A program made the position numbers and the translations under genes. A stretch of DNA of 45,102 bases, taken from contig DASYZB010000049.1 of assembly GCA_035946615.1 (NCBI GenBank), positions 1 to 45,102 of the forward strand, read 5' to 3'. The DNA comes from Verrucomicrobiia bacterium. Lineage in GTDB: Bacteria; Verrucomicrobiota; Verrucomicrobiia; Limisphaerales; UBA8199. The notes beneath the pieces are model-generated. The model ran no database searches. It saw nothing but the letters and a program-made list of their open reading frames with translations, and was not told the DNA's origin. Positions 6,743 to 40,894 of this stretch are shown piece after piece. The first letter of the stretch is position 1; each line of letters begins with the position of its first letter.

Positions 6743-6880
6743 AAGCTTATTTTGTTGAAATCCGGCAGCGAGTCAAGAAGTATTTATTTCGCCGACCCGC
6801 TTGGTTGAGCGGCCCTTGTTCCCAGAAACGTTGCCTGGAGTGATTTGTGGCTTGGCGCGGGTGTTTCCATCATGCCGAGG

Positions 6881-6975
6881 GTAATCGGTTAGTGACGGCG
6901 GGCGCTGCCGCCTAAAGGCGGCGTTCCGCGCGTCCGGAACGCCGGCTTCAGCCGGCAGCCCCGTAGTCACTGAGG
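6881..6975 (+). repeat. 95-bp three-hairpin dispersed repeat, copy 1
   Basis: It begins GTAATCGGTTAGTGACGG and ends CCCCGTAGTCACTGAGG. Three hairpins stand in a row: GCCGCC-taaa-GGCGGC, GTTCCG-cgcgt-CCGGAAC and GCCGGC-ttca-GCCGGC. The ends AGTGAC and GTCACT pair as an outer stem, giving a cloverleaf-like fold. It lies 74 bp upstream of the alginate-lyase-family gene, pointing toward it. Near-identical copies are at 13750-13844 (minus), 21635-21729 and 40808-40894, with a variant at 33836-33926 and a rearranged pair at 36363-36434. Confidence 0.93.
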
Positions 6976-7049
6976 GGATACTGCCGAGGCTAGTTGCCTG
7001 ATTGACTTTCGCCACAAGCAGGGGCAGTTTGCGTTTCAGATTGGGACCT

Positions 7050-13627: not shown

Positions 13628-13749
13628 GGATGTTTTCCCAGCCCGGCGCCCTCCTCTCACGCAGTTTCGCCTCGAGTTCAATGGACCCAGCCAAGGGCTA
13701 TAGCATTGGCGGGCCTGGCCTTGGGGTCAAGCTCGGAAAGGTGGTAACG

Positions 13750-13844
13750 CCTCAGTGACTACGGGGCTGCCGGCTGAAGCCGGCGTTCCGGACGCGCGGA
13801 ACGCCGCCTTTAGGCGGCAGCGCCCGCCGTCACTAACCGATTAC
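13750..13844 (-). repeat. 95-bp three-hairpin dispersed repeat, copy 2
   Basis: Reverse complement of copy 1 with all three hairpins and the AGTGAC/GTCACT outer stem intact. The similarity continues outward: GTAATCGG on one side and GGTAACG on the other also pair, so the element may be about 105 bp with ~17-bp terminal inverted repeats. It points toward the M13 peptidase gene. Confidence 0.93.
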
Positions 13845-13921
13845 GAAAGGTGAGTGGCCAGGTTGGCCAGGTTACCGCGGGGCGCATGACAGAGTCGAAG
13901 CAACGAGCCGCCATTCCTGAG

Positions 13922-14023
13922 TGTAGGAGACGACGTAAGGAGTCTCTGATCGGCAACTTCCGGGTGAGCCAAAGGCGGCCAGCCGACAATCTTGATCAGA
14001 GACTCCTTACATCGTCTCCTACA
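13922..14023. repeat. 102-bp palindromic element with 30-bp inverted arms
   Basis: Left arm 13922-13951 begins TGTAGGAGACGACGTAAGG; right arm 13994-14023 is its reverse complement with one difference in 30. The 42-bp centre holds no gene. Length and structure fit a small non-autonomous palindromic mobile element (MITE) or a strong hairpin between two convergent or divergent units. Confidence 0.9.
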
Positions 14024-14634: not shown

Positions 14635-15936
14635 ATGACACGAACAGACCATGCCGATTCAGCCTGGGTATCGCTGGGCATTTTTGCCTGGAACGAGGAA
14701 CGGGCCGTAGCGGATTTGCTCGAATCGCTTTTCCGCCAGACGCTTTTTCGCAACGCCCGCGAACGCGGTCTGCGATGTGAGGTGCTTTGCCTGGCCAACG
14801 GGTGCACCGATCGGACCGCGGCGGTTGCGGCCAGCGTCTTTGCGAAACAATCGGCCACCCACCCGGAAGCGGGGGCTTTTAGCGCCCGAGTGGAAACGAT
14901 TGCGCAACGGGGAAAGATTAATGCCTGGAATCAATTCGTCCATCAGCTCTCATCCAGGGACGCTCGTTTCCTTTTCCTGATGGATGCCGACATCCTTCTT
15001 CAGCGCCCGGAGACGCTCTGGAACATGGCGCGCGCCCTGGAACAACATGCTGAGGCAAGCATTGCCGTGGACCGCCCTTGCAAAGACATCTCGTTTAAGC
15101 CGCGCAAAACGCTCTTCGAGCGCCTCTCGCTGGCTGCCTCCCGGATGACCCTCTCGGCTGACGCCCAGTTATGCGCCCAGCTTTACTGTATTCGCTCCGA
15201 AACGGCCCGAAACATCTACTTGCCCAAGGACCTCGCCGCGTGCGACGACGGTTTTATCAAGGCGCTGGTGTGCACGGATTTCCTCGAGGATGAGATTCGA
15301 CCGGAGCGGATTTGCCTGGCGCCCGAAGCCGAGCACACGTTCGAGGCCTACACCTCTCCGGCCGCTATCTTGAAGAACCAGAAGAGGCAGGTGATTGGGC
15401 AAACAATCGTTCACATCCTGGTGGACCAGTGCTTGCCGGCCCTAACGCCCGCCCAGCGCCGGCAAATGGGCGAGGTGATCCGCAACAAGGAAACAACGGA
15501 CCCGGCCTGGCTAAAGCGCCTGATTGCCGGGCACCTGGCTCGGCAGAAATACTGTTGGCGCCTTTATCCGGGTTTGTTCGGCCAGCGGTTCCGCAAGTTG
15601 AAAAAGCTCGGACTGATTTCGCGGATGTTTTGTTTGCCGGCCGCCGCGCTGGGCTCGGGCGCCACGCTGCTGGCTAGTTTCCTGGCCTATCGCTCCTTGA
15701 AGGCGGGTGGCACCGATTACTGGCCCAAAGCGCCCCGGCGGGGATTCGCGCAGGGCAATGGCCAAGAGGTTCCGACCGCGATGGGGTTGCTGGCAGGACC
15801 GTGGGATGGACTACACACAGAGGGATCCCTCTTCCCTTCGGAAGTGGAGAGGGAGAAGCATCGGCAGATTAAAGATGTAGTTCATGTTAGGGACTCCTCA
15901 ATAGGGGCGGTGGCCTCCGCGAAGTTAGACCGCTGA
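14635..15936 (+). CDS. GT2 glycosyltransferase with repeat-derived C-terminal tail
   Basis: A 433-residue protein from the ATG at 14635; TTG two codons upstream is the alternative. GT-A fold: SLGIFAWNEERAVADLLESL, CLANGCTDRT and the D-x-D-like FLFLMDADILL at about residues 113-123. Near the C-terminus is a hydrophobic segment (FCLPAAALGSGATLLASFLA). The family transfers a sugar from an NDP-sugar to a lipid-linked or growing glycan at the inner membrane. The last ~45 residues (from about GPWDGLHTEGSLFPSE) are translated from a dispersed IS630-related MITE at 15796-15901, so they are probably not part of the ancestral enzyme. First gene of a polysaccharide locus that continues to 20.4 kb. Confidence 0.88.
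   Translation: MTRTDHADSAWVSLGIFAWNEERAVADLLESLFRQTLFRNARERGLRCEVLCLANGCTDRTAAVAASVFAKQSATHPEAGAFSARVETIAQRGKINAWNQFVHQLSSRDARFLFLMDADILLQRPETLWNMARALEQHAEASIAVDRPCKDISFKPRKTLFERLSLAASRMTLSADAQLCAQLYCIRSETARNIYLPKDLAACDDGFIKALVCTDFLEDEIRPERICLAPEAEHTFEAYTSPAAILKNQKRQVIGQTIVHILVDQCLPALTPAQRRQMGEVIRNKETTDPAWLKRLIAGHLARQKYCWRLYPGLFGQRFRKLKKLGLISRMFCLPAAALGSGATLLASFLAYRSLKAGGTDYWPKAPRRGFAQGNGQEVPTAMGLLAGPWDGLHTEGSLFPSEVEREKHRQIKDVVHVRDSSIGAVASAKLDR
15796..15901 (+). mobile_element. IS630-related MITE (element A), inside the GT2 3' end
   Basis: It begins GGACCGTGGGATGGACTACA and ends GTAGTTCATGTTAGGGACT + CCTCAA, directly followed by TA. The right end matches the IS630-type right end at 27669-27692 in layout (GTAGTCTATGCTAGGGACT + six bases + TA). 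Between the ends are a CTTCCCTTCGGAAGTGGAGAG hairpin-like palindrome and an ATCGGCAGATTAAAG segment. There is no coding capacity of its own; it supplies the GT2 tail. Related pieces are at 16620-16721 and 27860-27913. Confidence 0.75.
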
Positions 15937-16619: not shown

Positions 16620-16721
16620 GAGGACCCCTAACATGAACTACATCTTTAATCTGCCGATGGGGCCGTGGCATAGACTACAGAGAGGGACTCCTCTCCCCTT
16701 CGGAAGGGGAGAGGGAGAAGC
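16620..16721. mobile_element. IS630-related MITE (element B), rearranged, carrying a Shine-Dalgarno
   Basis: It holds the same two modules as element A but rearranged. First comes the inverted right-end module (GAGGACCCCTAACATGAAC... ATCTGCCGATG), then the left module (GGCATAGACTACAGAGAGG ... CTCTCCCC-TTCGG-AAGGGGAGAGGGAGAAGC). The last bases GGGAGAAGC sit directly in front of the GTG of the O-antigen ligase gene, so the repeat provides that gene's ribosome-binding site. Confidence 0.7.
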
Positions 16722-21564: not shown

Positions 21565-21634
21565 TATCTGATGAGAACGAGGATGAGGGCATCCGGGTCC
21601 ATTTTCAAAACACGCACTCCCGGGCACACAGGCA

Positions 21635-21729
21635 GTAATCGGTTAGTGACGGCGGGCGCTGCCGCCTAAAGGCGGCGTTCCGCGCGTCCGGAACGCCGGC
21701 TTCAGCCGGCAGCCCCGTAGTCACTGAGG
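21635..21729 (+). repeat. 95-bp three-hairpin dispersed repeat, copy 3
   Basis: Sequence appears identical to copy 1 across the 95 bp and is followed by GCATTACCAC, matching copy 2's flank. It lies upstream of rpsA (257 bp before the chosen start) and points toward it. Confidence 0.93.
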
Positions 21730-21763
21730 CATTACCACAGGCACACAGGCACACAAATTGTGC

Positions 21764-29156: not shown

Positions 29157-29273
29157 ACGGGTGGAACTGGTGCGGCTCGCTTGGAAATGGAACAGGTTTC
29201 TAAACCAACAGCACCTCAGTTCAAATTACGACGGAACGGCGGCGAAGGACCTGTCCCGTAGGGACATCCGACA

Positions 29274-29424
29274 ATAGCCCAACCCTTTAGCGTTGGGGAC
29301 GGCTGTGTTGTGCTCCTGAGTCCCGAAGGGACCGCTGAACCAAACCGCGGCCGCCGGCTTCAGCCGTCCCTTCGGGACTCAGACGCGCTTCAACGTCTCT
29401 CCCAACGCTAAAGCGCTGGGCTAT
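29274..29424. repeat. Large nested palindrome upstream of the REP-type transposase
   Basis: Outer arms ATAGCCCAACCCTTTAGCG (29274 on) and its near reverse complement ending at 29424 (22 of 24 match). Inner arms TGAGTCCCGAAGGGACCGCT (29318 on) and GGCTTCAGCCGTCCCTTCGG (29357 on) also pair. A GTCCCGTAGGGAC palindrome precedes it. A related nested palindrome lies on the other side of the transposase at 30158-30308. Confidence 0.88.
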
Positions 29425-29600
29425 TCTCATGCCGTCCGCTCCGGGACGGGGATGACCAATGCGGAATCGTCAAAAGAGCCAATGTGGGGTTTGGACTTGA
29501 CGGCTGTTGTTGCGGCGCCTCCGGGACCGAAAAAACACTTCATTCAACATTAGGTGACATTTGCGCTTGCCCCAAATGCGGAAATAGCCTAAATGGACGC

Positions 29601-30501: not shown

Positions 30502-30739
30502 AGGGCTCCAAAATCATAGTTCAGCGCCTTCGCCCACTCCGAGAGTTCGGATGAGCGCGGCTCTACTGGGTGGCGGCGAAGTTTAAGCCGCCAAAACGAC
30601 CCACCGGGCGGGATAAACGGCTCACGCCTGGCGCCGCACGCTGGCGGCAGAAATGGAAGGAGCACTAATTGTGCCAGTCGCAGATTTTAGAATTTTGATT
30701 TGGGATTTTCGATTGAAAGAAAAAGCAGAAAGCAGAAAG

Positions 30740-30871
30740 GGTATTCGCCGTGTTGGGAACGTGAACCCCGCCCCGAATGGCCTGCTGATTGGCCAGCACG
30801 GCCGGTTCGCCGTTAACATTCGAATCAGTGTAGATATCCACGGTGTTGCCGGGAAGGGCGCCGGTGATGTC
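30740..30871 (-). pseudogene. Relic of a secreted/outer-surface protein gene (part 2)
   Basis: The minus strand reads DITGALPGNTVDIYTDSNVN then GEPAVLANQQAIRGGVHVPN-TANT without a stop. It looks like genuine beta-rich coding sequence but has no start and is cut off by heptamer repeats at 30681-30737. It may belong to the same decayed gene as the fragment at 30320-30501. Between and around them (30502-30739, 30872-31092) I see only repeats. Confidence 0.35.
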
Positions 30872-31092
30872 CGTCGGTTCGGATCATAGGGATCGCCCGA
30901 AAGGGGTCCTGACAGGATGTCCTCACCGCGCCGCGGGCCGGCGGGCTGAGGACGGCCCGCCCTCCCTTCCGATTCATGGGGAAAAGGCGGCGAGTCCTGC
31001 GCTGTTGAAAGCTGAAACCGCAATCGGAAATAAAGAAATCGGAGATTGAAAAGGCGGAAAGCTGAAACAGGGAGCTCCGGAGGTGCAGCCCG

Positions 31093-31338
31093 TTAAATCT
31101 CGAACTCCCCGATTGGATTGGGCTTAGAAAGCCGGACCGCCGGGGCCGAGCGGCCCAAAGGAGGCAAAGGAACCGCAAGACCACTTGTGCGCTCAGCTTG
31201 ATCCAAAACCCCCAAAAGCGCGTGCGCTTCGGCGAGGGTCAATTTTGCCCTGGAAAGGAGCTCGGCTCGGAGCAAAGGGGAGGGGAGCTCGTGGCCCAGC
31301 GTGGCTGTCGTATGTACGGTGTTCAAAATCGCCGCCAT
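31093..31338 (-). CDS. Small hypothetical protein (81 aa)
   Basis: From the ATG at 31338: MAAILNTVHTTATLGHELPS, then LLSRAKLTLAEAHALLGVLDQAER and a C-terminus rich in Pro/Leu (PLPPLGRSAPAVRLSKPN). The helical middle suggests a real folded segment. The upstream part of the frame is built from heptamer repeats and is excluded. No family recognised; the only intact-looking gene in the repeat-rich zone 30.1-31.8 kb. Confidence 0.4.
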   Translation of the reverse strand: MAAILNTVHTTATLGHELPSPLLRAELLSRAKLTLAEAHALLGVLDQAERTSGLAVPLPPLGRSAPAVRLSKPNPIGEFEI

Positions 31339-31439
31339 GGTTGGGATTATACTCGTGAGGGTGGATGATTGGGTATGGGGTAAGTGCCTACCGGGGGCGT
31401 TCGATTTTAGAATTTTGATTTTGGATCTAAAAAGGCAAA

Positions 31440-31480
31440 AGCAGAAAACCGAAAGCAGAAAGCTGAAAGAAAAAGCAGAA
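31440..31480. repeat. Heptanucleotide tandem repeat AGCAGAA-type
   Basis: Units agcagaa, aaccgaa, agcagaa, agctgaa at 31440-31467, a 6-nt interruption, then agcagaa to 31480. Adjacent at 31402-31428 is the other common heptamer family (gattttagaattttgattt). Confidence 0.85.
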
Positions 31481-31554
31481 AGCAGGGAGACACGAATTTC
31501 ACGAATCCGCAGGAATGGCGAGGCCGTTGTCTTAGGGGCCGTCAAAAACTAACC

Positions 31555-31674
31555 TTTACACTTTGACGCGGCGGCGTGACGGCATGTGCTTCGTTGCTCC
31601 TCAGTTACAGAGCGCTGGCGGCTCCTTCGTCGCGCCTTGCATCTGCCGCCACGGCGCTCGCGCCAAAGTGTAAA
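31555..31674. repeat. 120-bp fold-back element
   Basis: Ends TTTACACTTTGACGCG and CGCGCCAAAGTGTAAA are inverted repeats (15 of 16 match); pairing continues imperfectly inward (GCGGCGTGACGGCATG against CATCTGCCGCCACGGC). No coding potential. Size and structure fit a small palindromic mobile element. Confidence 0.75.
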
Positions 31675-31700
31675 TCTTATTTCCTGACAGCCCCTTCCCC

Positions 31701-31735
31701 AATCGAAAATCCAAAATCAAAATTCTAAAATCAAC
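31701..31735. repeat. Heptanucleotide tandem repeat AATCNAA-type
   Basis: Five 7-nt units (aatcgaa, aatccaa, aatcaaa, attctaa, aatcaac) followed by a run of nine C and six G. The same family in the opposite orientation is at 30683-30716, 31402-31428, 32525-32552 and 32569-32601. Confidence 0.88.
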
Positions 31736-31830
31736 CCCCCCCCGGGGGGTCGGGTCTTTTCCCGGCAATGAAATCCGTAGAGTTTGGCGTTGTTGGCAAG
31801 CTAATTGCCTCTATACTCGTGAGAATCCAA

Positions 31831-32427
31831 ATGAATTGGCACGAGATGGATGAGCAACGCGGCGAGCCCGCGTGGTATTGCGCCAGGACGCAACCCAAGC
31901 ACGAGCATATCGCGGCAGGCAATGTGCGGGCGCGGCTTGGGCTCGATGTATTTCATCCGCGCCTCAGGATGGAGCGAGCGACACGGCGCGGGGTGGTGCG
32001 GGTAGTTGAGCCCCTTTTTCCGGGATATATTTTTGTGCGGTGCAGTCTGGCGGAGCGGGTGGATGAGATTCGGTATGTCAGCGGGGTGAGCAGCCTGGTG
32101 CATTTTGGACTGAAGATTCCTTCGGTGCCGGAGCATGTCATTGAGGAACTGCGGCAGTGTTTTGAATCGGACGAGCCGATGGCAGTGGAGGAGAGGCTGG
32201 CGCCTGGGACTGAGGTAACTGTGGCCGAGGGGGCGTTGTTGGGTTCTCGAGGGGTGGTGGTGCGGGTGCTTCCGGCGCGGCAGCGGGTGCAGATACTTTT
32301 GGATTTTCTTGGGCGAACGACTTTGACGGAAGTGGATCGGAGGTCGGTGACGGTTGAGGAGAGGCGGATGGCGGATTTGATGCCGGCGCTGGCGGTCGAG
32401 CCATTGAGCGTGGCGGCAGCGGCCTGA
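31831..32427 (+). CDS. NusG/RfaH-like transcription antitermination protein
   Basis: A 198-residue protein from the ATG at 31831 (MNWHEMDEQRGEPAWYCART); a longer frame from 31768 is less likely because NGN domains begin at the W-Y-x-x-x-T strand. NGN domain: AWYCARTQPKHEHIAAGNVR, VEPLFPGYIFVRC, VSGVSSLVHFG. The C-terminal KOW-like part: LAPGTEVTVAEGALLGSRGV and VQILLDFLGRTTLTEVD. Specialised NusG paralogues (RfaH, UpxY, LoaP) promote readthrough of long polysaccharide operons. As the first gene of the 31.8-45.1 kb glycan locus it is the likely regulator of that operon. Confidence 0.9.
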   Translation: MNWHEMDEQRGEPAWYCARTQPKHEHIAAGNVRARLGLDVFHPRLRMERATRRGVVRVVEPLFPGYIFVRCSLAERVDEIRYVSGVSSLVHFGLKIPSVPEHVIEELRQCFESDEPMAVEERLAPGTEVTVAEGALLGSRGVVVRVLPARQRVQILLDFLGRTTLTEVDRRSVTVEERRMADLMPALAVEPLSVAAAA

Positions 32428-32524
32428 GGAAGGCACAAGAAGCGAGGGCCACTGCAGATAAGTGGCAGGGGAGAGCAGGTTTGGCGGGAAAACGGGAAAT
32501 CCTGCAAGTGCGGAGCTTTGTACA

Positions 32525-32601
32525 ATTTTGATTTTAGATTTTTGAATTTCGATTGCGGGGGGCGGGGGATTTTAGAATTTTGATTTTGGATTTTCGATTG
32601 G
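32525..32601. repeat. Heptanucleotide repeats TTTTGAT/ATTTTGG-type, two tracts
   Basis: Tract one (32525-32552): ttttgat, tttagat, ttttgaa, tttcgat. Tract two (32569-32601): attttag, aattttg, attttgg, attttcg, attgg. They lie in the 262-bp spacer between the NusG-like and FemAB-like genes. Confidence 0.88.
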
Positions 32602-32689
32602 AGGGAACGGGTGGAACCGGTGATAAAAACGGTAATGCGCGCTGATTTTAGAGCAGCCGAAATAGCCGATAGGATATAGCCAACAGGCG

Positions 32690-33805: not shown

Positions 33806-33835
33806 GGCCTTGGAGCGTAAATGCCTGCTAAAGAA

Positions 33836-33926
33836 GGGCTTGCCAGCCGAAGCCGGCTGAAGCCGGCGTTTCCGGACGCGCGGAACGCCGCCTTTAGGCG
33901 GCAGCCCCGCCGTCACTAAAGCGATT
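33836..33926 (-). repeat. Three-hairpin dispersed repeat, variant copy 4
   Basis: Reverse orientation. The hairpins and the AGTGACGGCGGGGC end are conserved, but the other end is replaced by TGCCAGCCGAAGCCGGCTGA, so the outer stem is broken. It lies between the FemAB-like and Wzc-like genes and points away from the latter. Confidence 0.85.
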
Positions 33927-33943
33927 GATGTGGAGCGTGGGTA

Positions 33944-36276: not shown

Positions 36277-36362
36277 AAGGGAATGCTACCCTTATTTCTT
36301 ACCGCGCCTAACCTACGCCTAACCTGCATATTTCGCATATTTCACACACCGAACGCCAACCC

Positions 36363-36434
36363 ACCGGAACACCGGCTTCAGCCGGCAGGCTTGGGGCCTC
36401 GGGGGTCGCTGCCGGCTGAAGCCGGCGTTCCGGT
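36363..36434. repeat. Rearranged three-hairpin repeat: two half-elements head to head
   Basis: ACCGGAACACCGGCTTCAGCCGGCAG and, inverted, CTGCCGGCTGAAGCCGGCG + TTCCGGT, about 20 bp apart, so the two halves form one long hairpin. It sits between the Wzc-like gene and the deacetylase-GT4 gene and may act as a transcription attenuator inside the operon. Confidence 0.8.
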
Positions 36435-36484
36435 CTCGTGGGTGTGAAATATTGGGGCTAAGAGGCAAAGAGGGTTTTTGAATC

Positions 36485-40807: not shown

Positions 40808-40894
40808 TTAGTGACGGCGGGCGCTGCCGCCTAAAGGCGGCGTTCCGCGCGTCCGGAACGCCGGCTTCAGCCGGCAGCCCCTTCGTCACTGAGG
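40808..40894 (+). repeat. Three-hairpin dispersed repeat, copy 5
   Basis: TTAGTGACGGCGGGCGCTGC ... CCCCTTCGTCACTGAGG with all three hairpins; GTAG of copies 1-3 is TTCG here, so the outer stem AGTGACG/CGTCACT is longer. It ends 41 bp before the GT2 start and points toward it. The remaining 40625-40807 holds no gene I can support. Confidence 0.92.

Follow-up and report, generated by a model that had tools for sequence, protein, structure and literature searches.

The locus raises the question of what kind of sequence recurs, almost unchanged, along the window (the whole 45,102-nucleotide stretch that was analyzed, 58% GC and one of the 161 contigs of a 5.6-Mb draft genome). A preliminary description made from the letters of the window saw a dispersed element of about 95 bp with a cloverleaf-like fold and considered a mobile element, a structured RNA, or a nucleoid or gyrase binding unit. 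Our analysis points strongly to the first of these. The element is very probably a MITE (a non-autonomous DNA transposon) that belongs to the IS66 family, within which the ISBst12 group is the nearest, and its core is formed by a pair of REP-like units. It is classed as a MITE because it has terminal inverted repeats and 8-bp target duplications, occurs in about 50 copies and is too short to hold a transposase gene; in addition, a candidate autonomous relative with such ends was found in another genome.

Copies of the element in the window

The copies at 6881-6975, 13750-13844 (minus strand) and 21635-21729 were 100% identical over 95 bp. Alignment of their flanks placed the true right end 6 bp beyond the reported one, which gives a full element of 101 bp, GTAATCGGTTAGTGAC...GTCACTGAGGCATTAC. 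The right end reads variously CATTAC, CGTTAC or GGATAC among the window and genomic copies. Copy 1 (6881-6981, plus strand; right terminus GTATCCCCTCAGTGAC) lies between two 8-bp target duplications, TGCCGAGG, at 6873-6880 and 6982-6989. Copy 2 (13744-13844, minus strand; right end GTAACGCC) is bordered by CACCTTTC, read on the minus strand, at 13736-13743 and 13845-13852, and copy 3 (21635-21735, plus strand; right end GTAATGCC) by CACAGGCA at 21627-21634 and 21736-21743. Within copy 1, two REP-like hairpin units were recognized: unit 1 (GCTGCCGCCTAAAGGCGGCGTTCCG) at 6904-6928 on the plus strand and unit 2 (GCTGCCGGCTGAAGCCGGCGTTCCG), which faces the other way, at 6935-6959 on the minus strand.

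Two further copies are altered. Copy 4, which probably spans 33819-33930 on the minus strand, has diverged, with changed ends and interior insertions and deletions; an 8-bp match, ACGCTCCA on the minus strand, was seen by eye in its flanks at 33931-33938 and 33811-33818 and is likely a target duplication. Copy 5 (40808-40894, plus strand) differs from copy 1 at 2 bases over 87 bp, has lost its left terminal bases and ends on the right in CATGGC; no target duplication was recognized in its flanks. The list of near-full copies made at the outset is thus partly confirmed: 33836-33926 is part of the longer, diverged copy 4, and the ends had been drawn too short.

Copies, termini and target duplications across the genome

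Forty-five places in the window's own genome matched 30 nt of the left part of the element with at most three mismatches (22 and 23 on the two strands), and the reversed control pattern matched none, so the recurrence is far above the level of chance. Four copies of a 102-bp subfamily and a few copies at contig ends or damaged bring the total to about 50. The set examined for ends comprised 50 places, namely the 45 pattern matches, L061-L064 and L230; window copy 4, the copies in L065 and L066 and the second copy in L067 lie outside it. Both ends were kept at 45 of the 50 places, and the other five (L027, which is window copy 5, L046, L050, L052 and L230) have no recognizable end or core.

The 45 two-ended copies carry the imprint of transposition in their flanks. 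The target duplication was 8/8 in 38 copies and 7/8 in four, with single copies at 6, 5 and 3 of 8, the last of these being L054, in which the left boundary is probably misplaced. Agreement between the two flanks was found in 42 to 45 of the 45 copies at each of the eight positions and in 4 to 12 at the next six, and randomly mispaired flanks reached a maximum of 6/8 and never 7/8 in 2,000 draws. The insertion target had no clear consensus, since at most 19 of the 45 copies share any base at a position. The element is 101 bp long in 35 copies and 102 bp in six. It starts with GTAA at the left end in 44 copies and at the right end in 41. Terminal repeats of about 17 bp extending to GTAATCGG/GGTAACG had been proposed; this was close, but the repeats are imperfect (GTAATCGGTTAGTGAC versus GTAATGCCTCAGTGAC, 12 of 16 terminal bases alike in the commonest form) and the right end lies 6 bp further out.

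Thirty-one distinct sequences were present among the 45 copies, the commonest of which occurs in 11 copies that are identical over the full element. The amplification is therefore recent. Among these otherwise near-identical copies the right end varies: GTAATGCC was found in 32 of 45, GTAACGCC in eight and GTATCCCC in one (plus L230; in L050 it stands on the left), as if terminal bases had been swapped between elements. The full element was restricted to its own genome when 58 relatives were searched. Confinement to one lineage had been named beforehand as an argument against a conserved element; it applies to the full element, but the terminal frame was met again in two further genera. The phage and plasmid collections gave no blastn match at 1e-5, and a phage or plasmid origin was rejected on that ground.

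Fold of the element

The cloverleaf with three hairpins is not the favored fold. Folding gave one long imperfect hairpin of -65.9 kcal/mol as RNA, compared with -41.7 kcal/mol for the cloverleaf, so that the cloverleaf is penalized by about 24 kcal/mol as RNA and by about 17.5 kcal/mol as DNA. The long fold is significant, with z-scores of -6.96 (RNA) and -5.92 (DNA). As read in the sequences, the two inner hairpins differ from one another symmetrically (GCCGCCT/AGGCGGC in one, GCCGGCT/AGCCGGC in the other), as expected of hairpin units that are related but separate.

The very stable fold (z of -6.96 as RNA), together with the depletion of copies in genes, could speak for a dispersed, conserved structured RNA or cis-regulatory element, a reading that we regard as extremely unlikely. 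Compensatory variation in the stems had been proposed as the support to look for, and it was absent: among the 31 distinct copies, none of the 29 pairs of the cloverleaf and none of the 40 pairs of the long hairpin had changed on both sides. Paired cells amounted to 98.2% (cloverleaf) and 98.0% (long hairpin), the shuffles to 98.3% and 98.0%, so there was no excess of pairing over the shuffle level. Slid partners paired less, as is expected for a structure derived from the same sequence. A scan against Rfam found no family at the gathering threshold, a tRNA scan gave nothing, and the flanking duplications fit transposition instead. It seems that the copies took the fold over from a recent founder, and the pairing bears no visible sign of selection.

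A candidate autonomous partner

The candidate for an autonomous partner was found in G009, a genome of the same family as the host. This element (L197, positions 927-2780; 1,854 bp) has the 8-bp duplication CATTTTTG on both sides and ends GTATCCCCTCAGTGACGGCGG and GTATTCCCTCAGTGACGGCGG, which are alike at 19 of 20 bases. It encodes a DUF6788 protein (39.4 bits against a cut-off of 27.2) and an IS66 transposase (NF033517, 200.7 bits against a cut-off of 180; PF03050, 120 bits against a cut-off of 23.1); the transposase scans left out the first 120 or so residues of the frame. These residues, counted from the preceding stop, contain no ATG, GTG or TTG, which leaves the translation of the transposase unexplained. 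Over 16 of 16 bases, the left end of the L197 element is the same as the right end of copy 1 in the window. The two ends of the L197 element match the common right end of the MITE at 13/16 and 14/16 and the commonest left end at 11/16 and 12/16, and the partner itself ends in GTAT rather than GTAA. The IS66 assignment of the window element follows from these like ends and the 8-bp duplications on a DUF6788 plus IS66 element in a genome of the same family. The ISBst12 group is indicated by GTAA-type ends, 8-bp duplications and, in the autonomous form, an IS66 DDE transposase. That group has a single open reading frame, but the partner has two, DUF6788 and the transposase, and we therefore use the name ISBst12-like, within IS66.

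A related structure was found in G137: an element of 606 bp, bounded by GTAATGCCTCAGTGAC and TTAATGCCTCAGAGAC and flanked by a 7/8 duplication, encodes a DUF6788 protein that is 81% identical to that of G009, as well as a fragment identical at 28 of 38 residues to the beginning of the transposase frame of G009. From its sequence this element reads as an internally deleted relative. DUF6788 was detected in 19 of the 320 genomes of the order at 1e-6, and the degenerate terminal pattern in five of the 320, own genome included. The small DUF6788 frame (L197:1025-1363; L103) stands beside IS66 transposase sequence in both G009 and G137, a weaker relative in G012 (L162) adjoins a differently classed DDE transposase frame, and DUF6788 looks like a transposon accessory gene. 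The name DUF6788 was not met in the literature searched.

IS66 matches in the order were screened for ends as well. The first screen covered 33 loci (IS66 matches and two stretches of the own genome) and the second eight, several of them cut by contig ends; ends with a perfect duplication were found at two of the 33 loci and at one of the eight. The three elements concerned (L074, L077 and L154), classic IS66 elements of the same order, resemble the window element in having GTAA ends and perfect 8-bp duplications. Their ends, however, continue with GCGT, in contrast to the NNNNCTCAGTGACGGCGG type of the window element, and these canonical elements were rejected as the partner on this account. 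L154 has further open reading frames, which resemble TnpA and TnpB. Two other loci, L072 and L076, have GTAAGC ends without a perfect duplication.

Several other candidates were set aside. The search of the own draft assembly with PF03050 found two IS66 fragments only (on C4 and C26), both near contig edges and without matching ends, and the assembly gave no DUF6788 match. The DUF6788-like match of G012 (L162, on C152) adjoins a DDE_Tnp_1_4 transposase that scores below the cut-off, and no end was among the listings for that contig. At the DUF6788 loci of G310, G274, G285 and G021 the downstream frame that was scanned belongs to no transposase family. G090 has such ends only at contig breaks and a DUF6788-like locus without a transposase frame, and in G104 a single end resembles coding sequence and has no second end. 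A variant end pattern, which did not cover the window element's own left end, was run against a collection of 84,980 genomes and matched eight stretches: three in a Verrucomicrobiales MAG (PLIU01), four in a Limisphaerales MAG (PLZQ01) and one in Rhizobiales.

Draft MAGs often lose multi-copy IS elements, and it is thus possible that the partner is present in the host cell. A full-length DUF6788 plus IS66 partner in the host would be expected to have GTA(A/T)...CTCAGTGACGGCGG ends and 8-bp duplications.

The element could instead be a MITE moved by some other DDE transposase that makes 8-bp duplications. Several IS families make duplications of about this length, and the own assembly contains no IS66 partner. 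The GTAA-type ends combined with 8-bp duplications nevertheless match the IS66 elements that were found, the 16/16 identity ties copy 1 to the end of the G009 element, and DUF6788 with IS66-type sequence lies between such ends both in G009, where it is complete, and in G137, where it is partial. Movement by another enzyme is accordingly judged very unlikely.

With the IS66-linked MITE as the preferred reading, we infer mobilization in trans from the ends, the duplications and the G009 partner, of which the draft assembly of the host itself yielded no counterpart. An IS66-type transposase acting in trans would bind the two ends, cut, and insert the element at sites with an 8-bp stagger and with little regard to their sequence. 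Insertions that hit genes would mostly be lost, leaving a surplus of intergenic copies. The interior would have arisen when an inverted pair of REP-like hairpin repeats was captured between two IS66 ends; it would now be a passenger, possibly a helper that joins the two ends by folding back, rather than a conserved RNA.

Hairpin cores and terminal frames

The terminal end pattern was used to survey other genomes for elements with the same frame; 11 of the loci fetched showed no end pair. In G012 (same family, other genus) the framed elements measure 109-116, 124 or 179-180 bp, with a single one of 71 bp, and in G137 some measure 112-135 bp. Duplications in 20 framed elements of these two genomes were at least 7/8 in nine, 6/8 in two and at most 5/8 in nine; some of the last, which lie in shared flanks, may belong to larger repeats. 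The window's element and a G012 element with an 8/8 duplication (L119) have 21 of 21 left bases and 14 of 16 right bases in common, yet the alignment of their interiors does not rise above the shuffle level (equalled by 98 of 200 shuffles).

The interiors themselves are of several kinds. Those of the 113-, 124- and 179-bp types of G012 are inverted pairs of a hairpin unit, the core in G137 consists of two different hairpins between GGCAGGG-type arms and is not an inverted pair of one unit, and the 71-bp frame of G012 (L218) has no such hairpin pair. When interiors were aligned, four of 200 shuffles were as good for L119 versus L221 and 14 of 200 for L119 versus L105, so the L119 interior may be distantly related to both by sequence; for the remaining pairs, 18 to 200 of 200 shuffles were as good. 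From these alignments against shuffles, the number of unrelated cores is estimated as at least three and probably four.

The reverse arrangement, one core in several frames, was seen in the own genome, in which the window's REP-like unit occurs in two further MITE-like frames with ends unrelated to those of the main element. The first, MITE2 (GAGCGCATCTTGACAC...GTGTCAAGATGCGCTC), is complete in L233, L231 and L228, with 9-bp duplications of 9/9, 8/9 and 8/9, respectively, by eye; further copies in L227 and L232 are cut by contig ends. The second lies in the window at about 36337-36452; its ends read ATATTTCACAC...GTGTGAAATAT, and the REP-like units between them form an inverted pair that is arranged the opposite way. 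The sequence at 36363-36434, first taken for a rearranged pair of the main element, is this unit pair within the different TATTTCACAC/GTGTGAAATA frame (about 36337-36452), and the TATTTCACAC frame recurs in L229. In both frames the tails of the units point outward, opposite to the main element.

An inverted pair of hairpin units is also what a REPIN or BIME would present, namely a REP pair moved by a REP-associated tyrosine transposase (RAYT), and the terminal repeats would then be incidental. Other observations agree with this. The units fold as hairpins, and pairs of the window's unit stand outside any visible frame in G008, G017 and G034, as judged by eye from 80 bp of flank. A further unit type, that of the 179-bp elements, is free of a frame in G048, G008 and other genomes. 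It is present in six of the 58 relatives, including 35 places in G048, which had no match to the terminal end pattern, and the loci inspected hold free inverted pairs and single units of it. A fragment of a Y1-type transposase (PF01797; L059) lies about 230 bp from one copy, and GTAG is found in the frame a few nucleotides outside unit 2 in many copies.

The copies themselves, however, end at IS66-type repeats with 8-bp target duplications, a mark of DDE transposition that is not known from RAYT elements. In the own genome, which has 114 units, the units inspected outside the main element among the 100 listed were mostly in the two other TIR-bounded frames, L234 being the one clear free pair. 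In the comparison of unit types across genomes, the frame test allowed four mismatches and may call some free units framed; for the other unit types, the fetching of loci by end pattern biases the sample toward framed units. Moreover, the unit ends as read in the sequences do not have the GTAG that tags RAYT-linked REPs, as that tag is defined in the accessible part of PMC3733652. Because of the duplications, a REPIN or BIME is largely refuted for the movement of the present copies and as an account of the element is highly improbable, although such a pair may be the origin of the interior.

The preferred reading is a MITE with a REP-pair core. Across three genera, one frame encloses cores of at least three and probably four unrelated kinds; within one genome, one unit stands in three unrelated frames and two arrangements. 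On these grounds we propose tentatively, and with rather more doubt than conviction, that in these Verrucomicrobiota the ends of transposons and hairpin pairs of the REP type can be exchanged for one another as modules, that DDE end pairs repeatedly capture REP pairs and that a fold-back core perhaps raises transposition efficiency.

Position relative to genes

The copies lie preferentially outside genes. The test used 29 of the 45 copies, the others having too little flank. When the element was removed, an open reading frame of at least 200 aa covered seven of the 29 testable sites, compared with 66% of random positions in the same loci; for frames of at least 100 aa the values were 15 of 29 and 88.5%. 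In the window none of the copies falls in any of the Pfam domains found. Copy 5 is within the first residues of a mechanically called frame, and the glycosyltransferase domain of that frame begins downstream of the copy; copy 1 overlaps a mechanically called frame without a Pfam match. Among the neighbors of the copies in the window are genes for an alginate lyase, an M13 peptidase and a protein with six S1 RNA-binding domains, as well as glycosyltransferase and chain-length-type genes.

The intergenic bias and the long hairpin could mean that the copies now serve as transcription terminators, as hairpins that stabilize mRNA, or as gyrase or IHF sites, a secondary use that is compatible with a MITE origin. 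Loss of gene-breaking insertions yields the same bias, though, and no conserved position relative to genes was shown, so that such exaptation is considered unlikely.

Other repeats

Several other repeats were met in the course of the work. A dispersed element of roughly 100 bp that is built as an inverted pair, GGAGTGCGCCCGTCCTCGGGCGCAGC...GCTGCGCCC...GCACTCC, was seen along with single units at L240-L269 (G048, G008, G020, G012, G010 and contig C142 of G000), and some of its copies look positioned inside reading frames. In the window, an inverted repeat at 13922-14023 (TGTAGGAGACGACGTAAGGAGTCTCTGATC) has arms that are 97% complementary, and very similar words stand beside the MITE copy L053. 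A dispersed repeat CATCGGCAGATTAAAGATGTAGTTCATG... with a CCCTTCGGAAGGGG hairpin lies at 15815-15892 and 16626-16721 and also in L229, and it is nested inside a MITE copy in L067. The intervals 29270-29428, 30683-32607 and 31438-31481 contain a 70-bp imperfect inverted repeat (79%) and A+T-rich or purine-rich repeats (GATTTTAGAATTTTGATTTTGG; AAAGCAGAAAGCTGAAAGC).

Comparison with known systems and implications

The closest known system is the ISBst12 group of the IS66 family, an example of which is ISDge4 of Deinococcus geothermalis, with observed transposition, ends GTGACTACTCAGCA / GTAACTGCTCAGCA and an 8-bp duplication, according to the accessible part of its description (PMC12898284). As described there, ISDge4 resembles the window element in that its ends are similar to GTAATGCCTCAGTGAC, form an imperfect pair and are bordered by an 8-bp direct repeat, and it shares the IS66 transposase with the G009 element. 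ISDge4 is autonomous with a single open reading frame, whereas the G009 element has the extra DUF6788 frame and the window element has no transposase gene. The MITEs MITECca01, linked to IS982 (PMC9769881), and MITEPye1, linked to IS1182 and portrayed as a long, intergenic stem-loop bordered by direct repeats (PMC11578231), are like the window element short, bounded by terminal inverted repeats and attributed to an IS acting in trans, but the parts of these sources at hand assign them to other IS families. The interior of the window element resembles REPINs, BIMEs and REP dimers, as presented in the accessible text of PMC3733652, in being an inverted pair of short hairpin units; it differs from them in the DDE-type ends and target duplications around the pair and in having no GTAG tag at the ends of the units. 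No IS66-linked MITE was met in the literature searched, as far as its accessible parts go, although one may have been published elsewhere.

What had been a dispersed structure without explanation is now very probably a mobile element whose ends are defined and for which a rule of insertion and a likely enzyme can be named. It is set apart from an ordinary MITE by its core, which seems exchangeable in the handful of genomes on which this observation rests. Exchangeable hairpin cores make two questions testable, by what route REP pairs spread and whether MITE movement is aided by a palindromic core. If transposon ends and hairpin pairs are indeed modules, they would let REPs spread without a transposase of their own.
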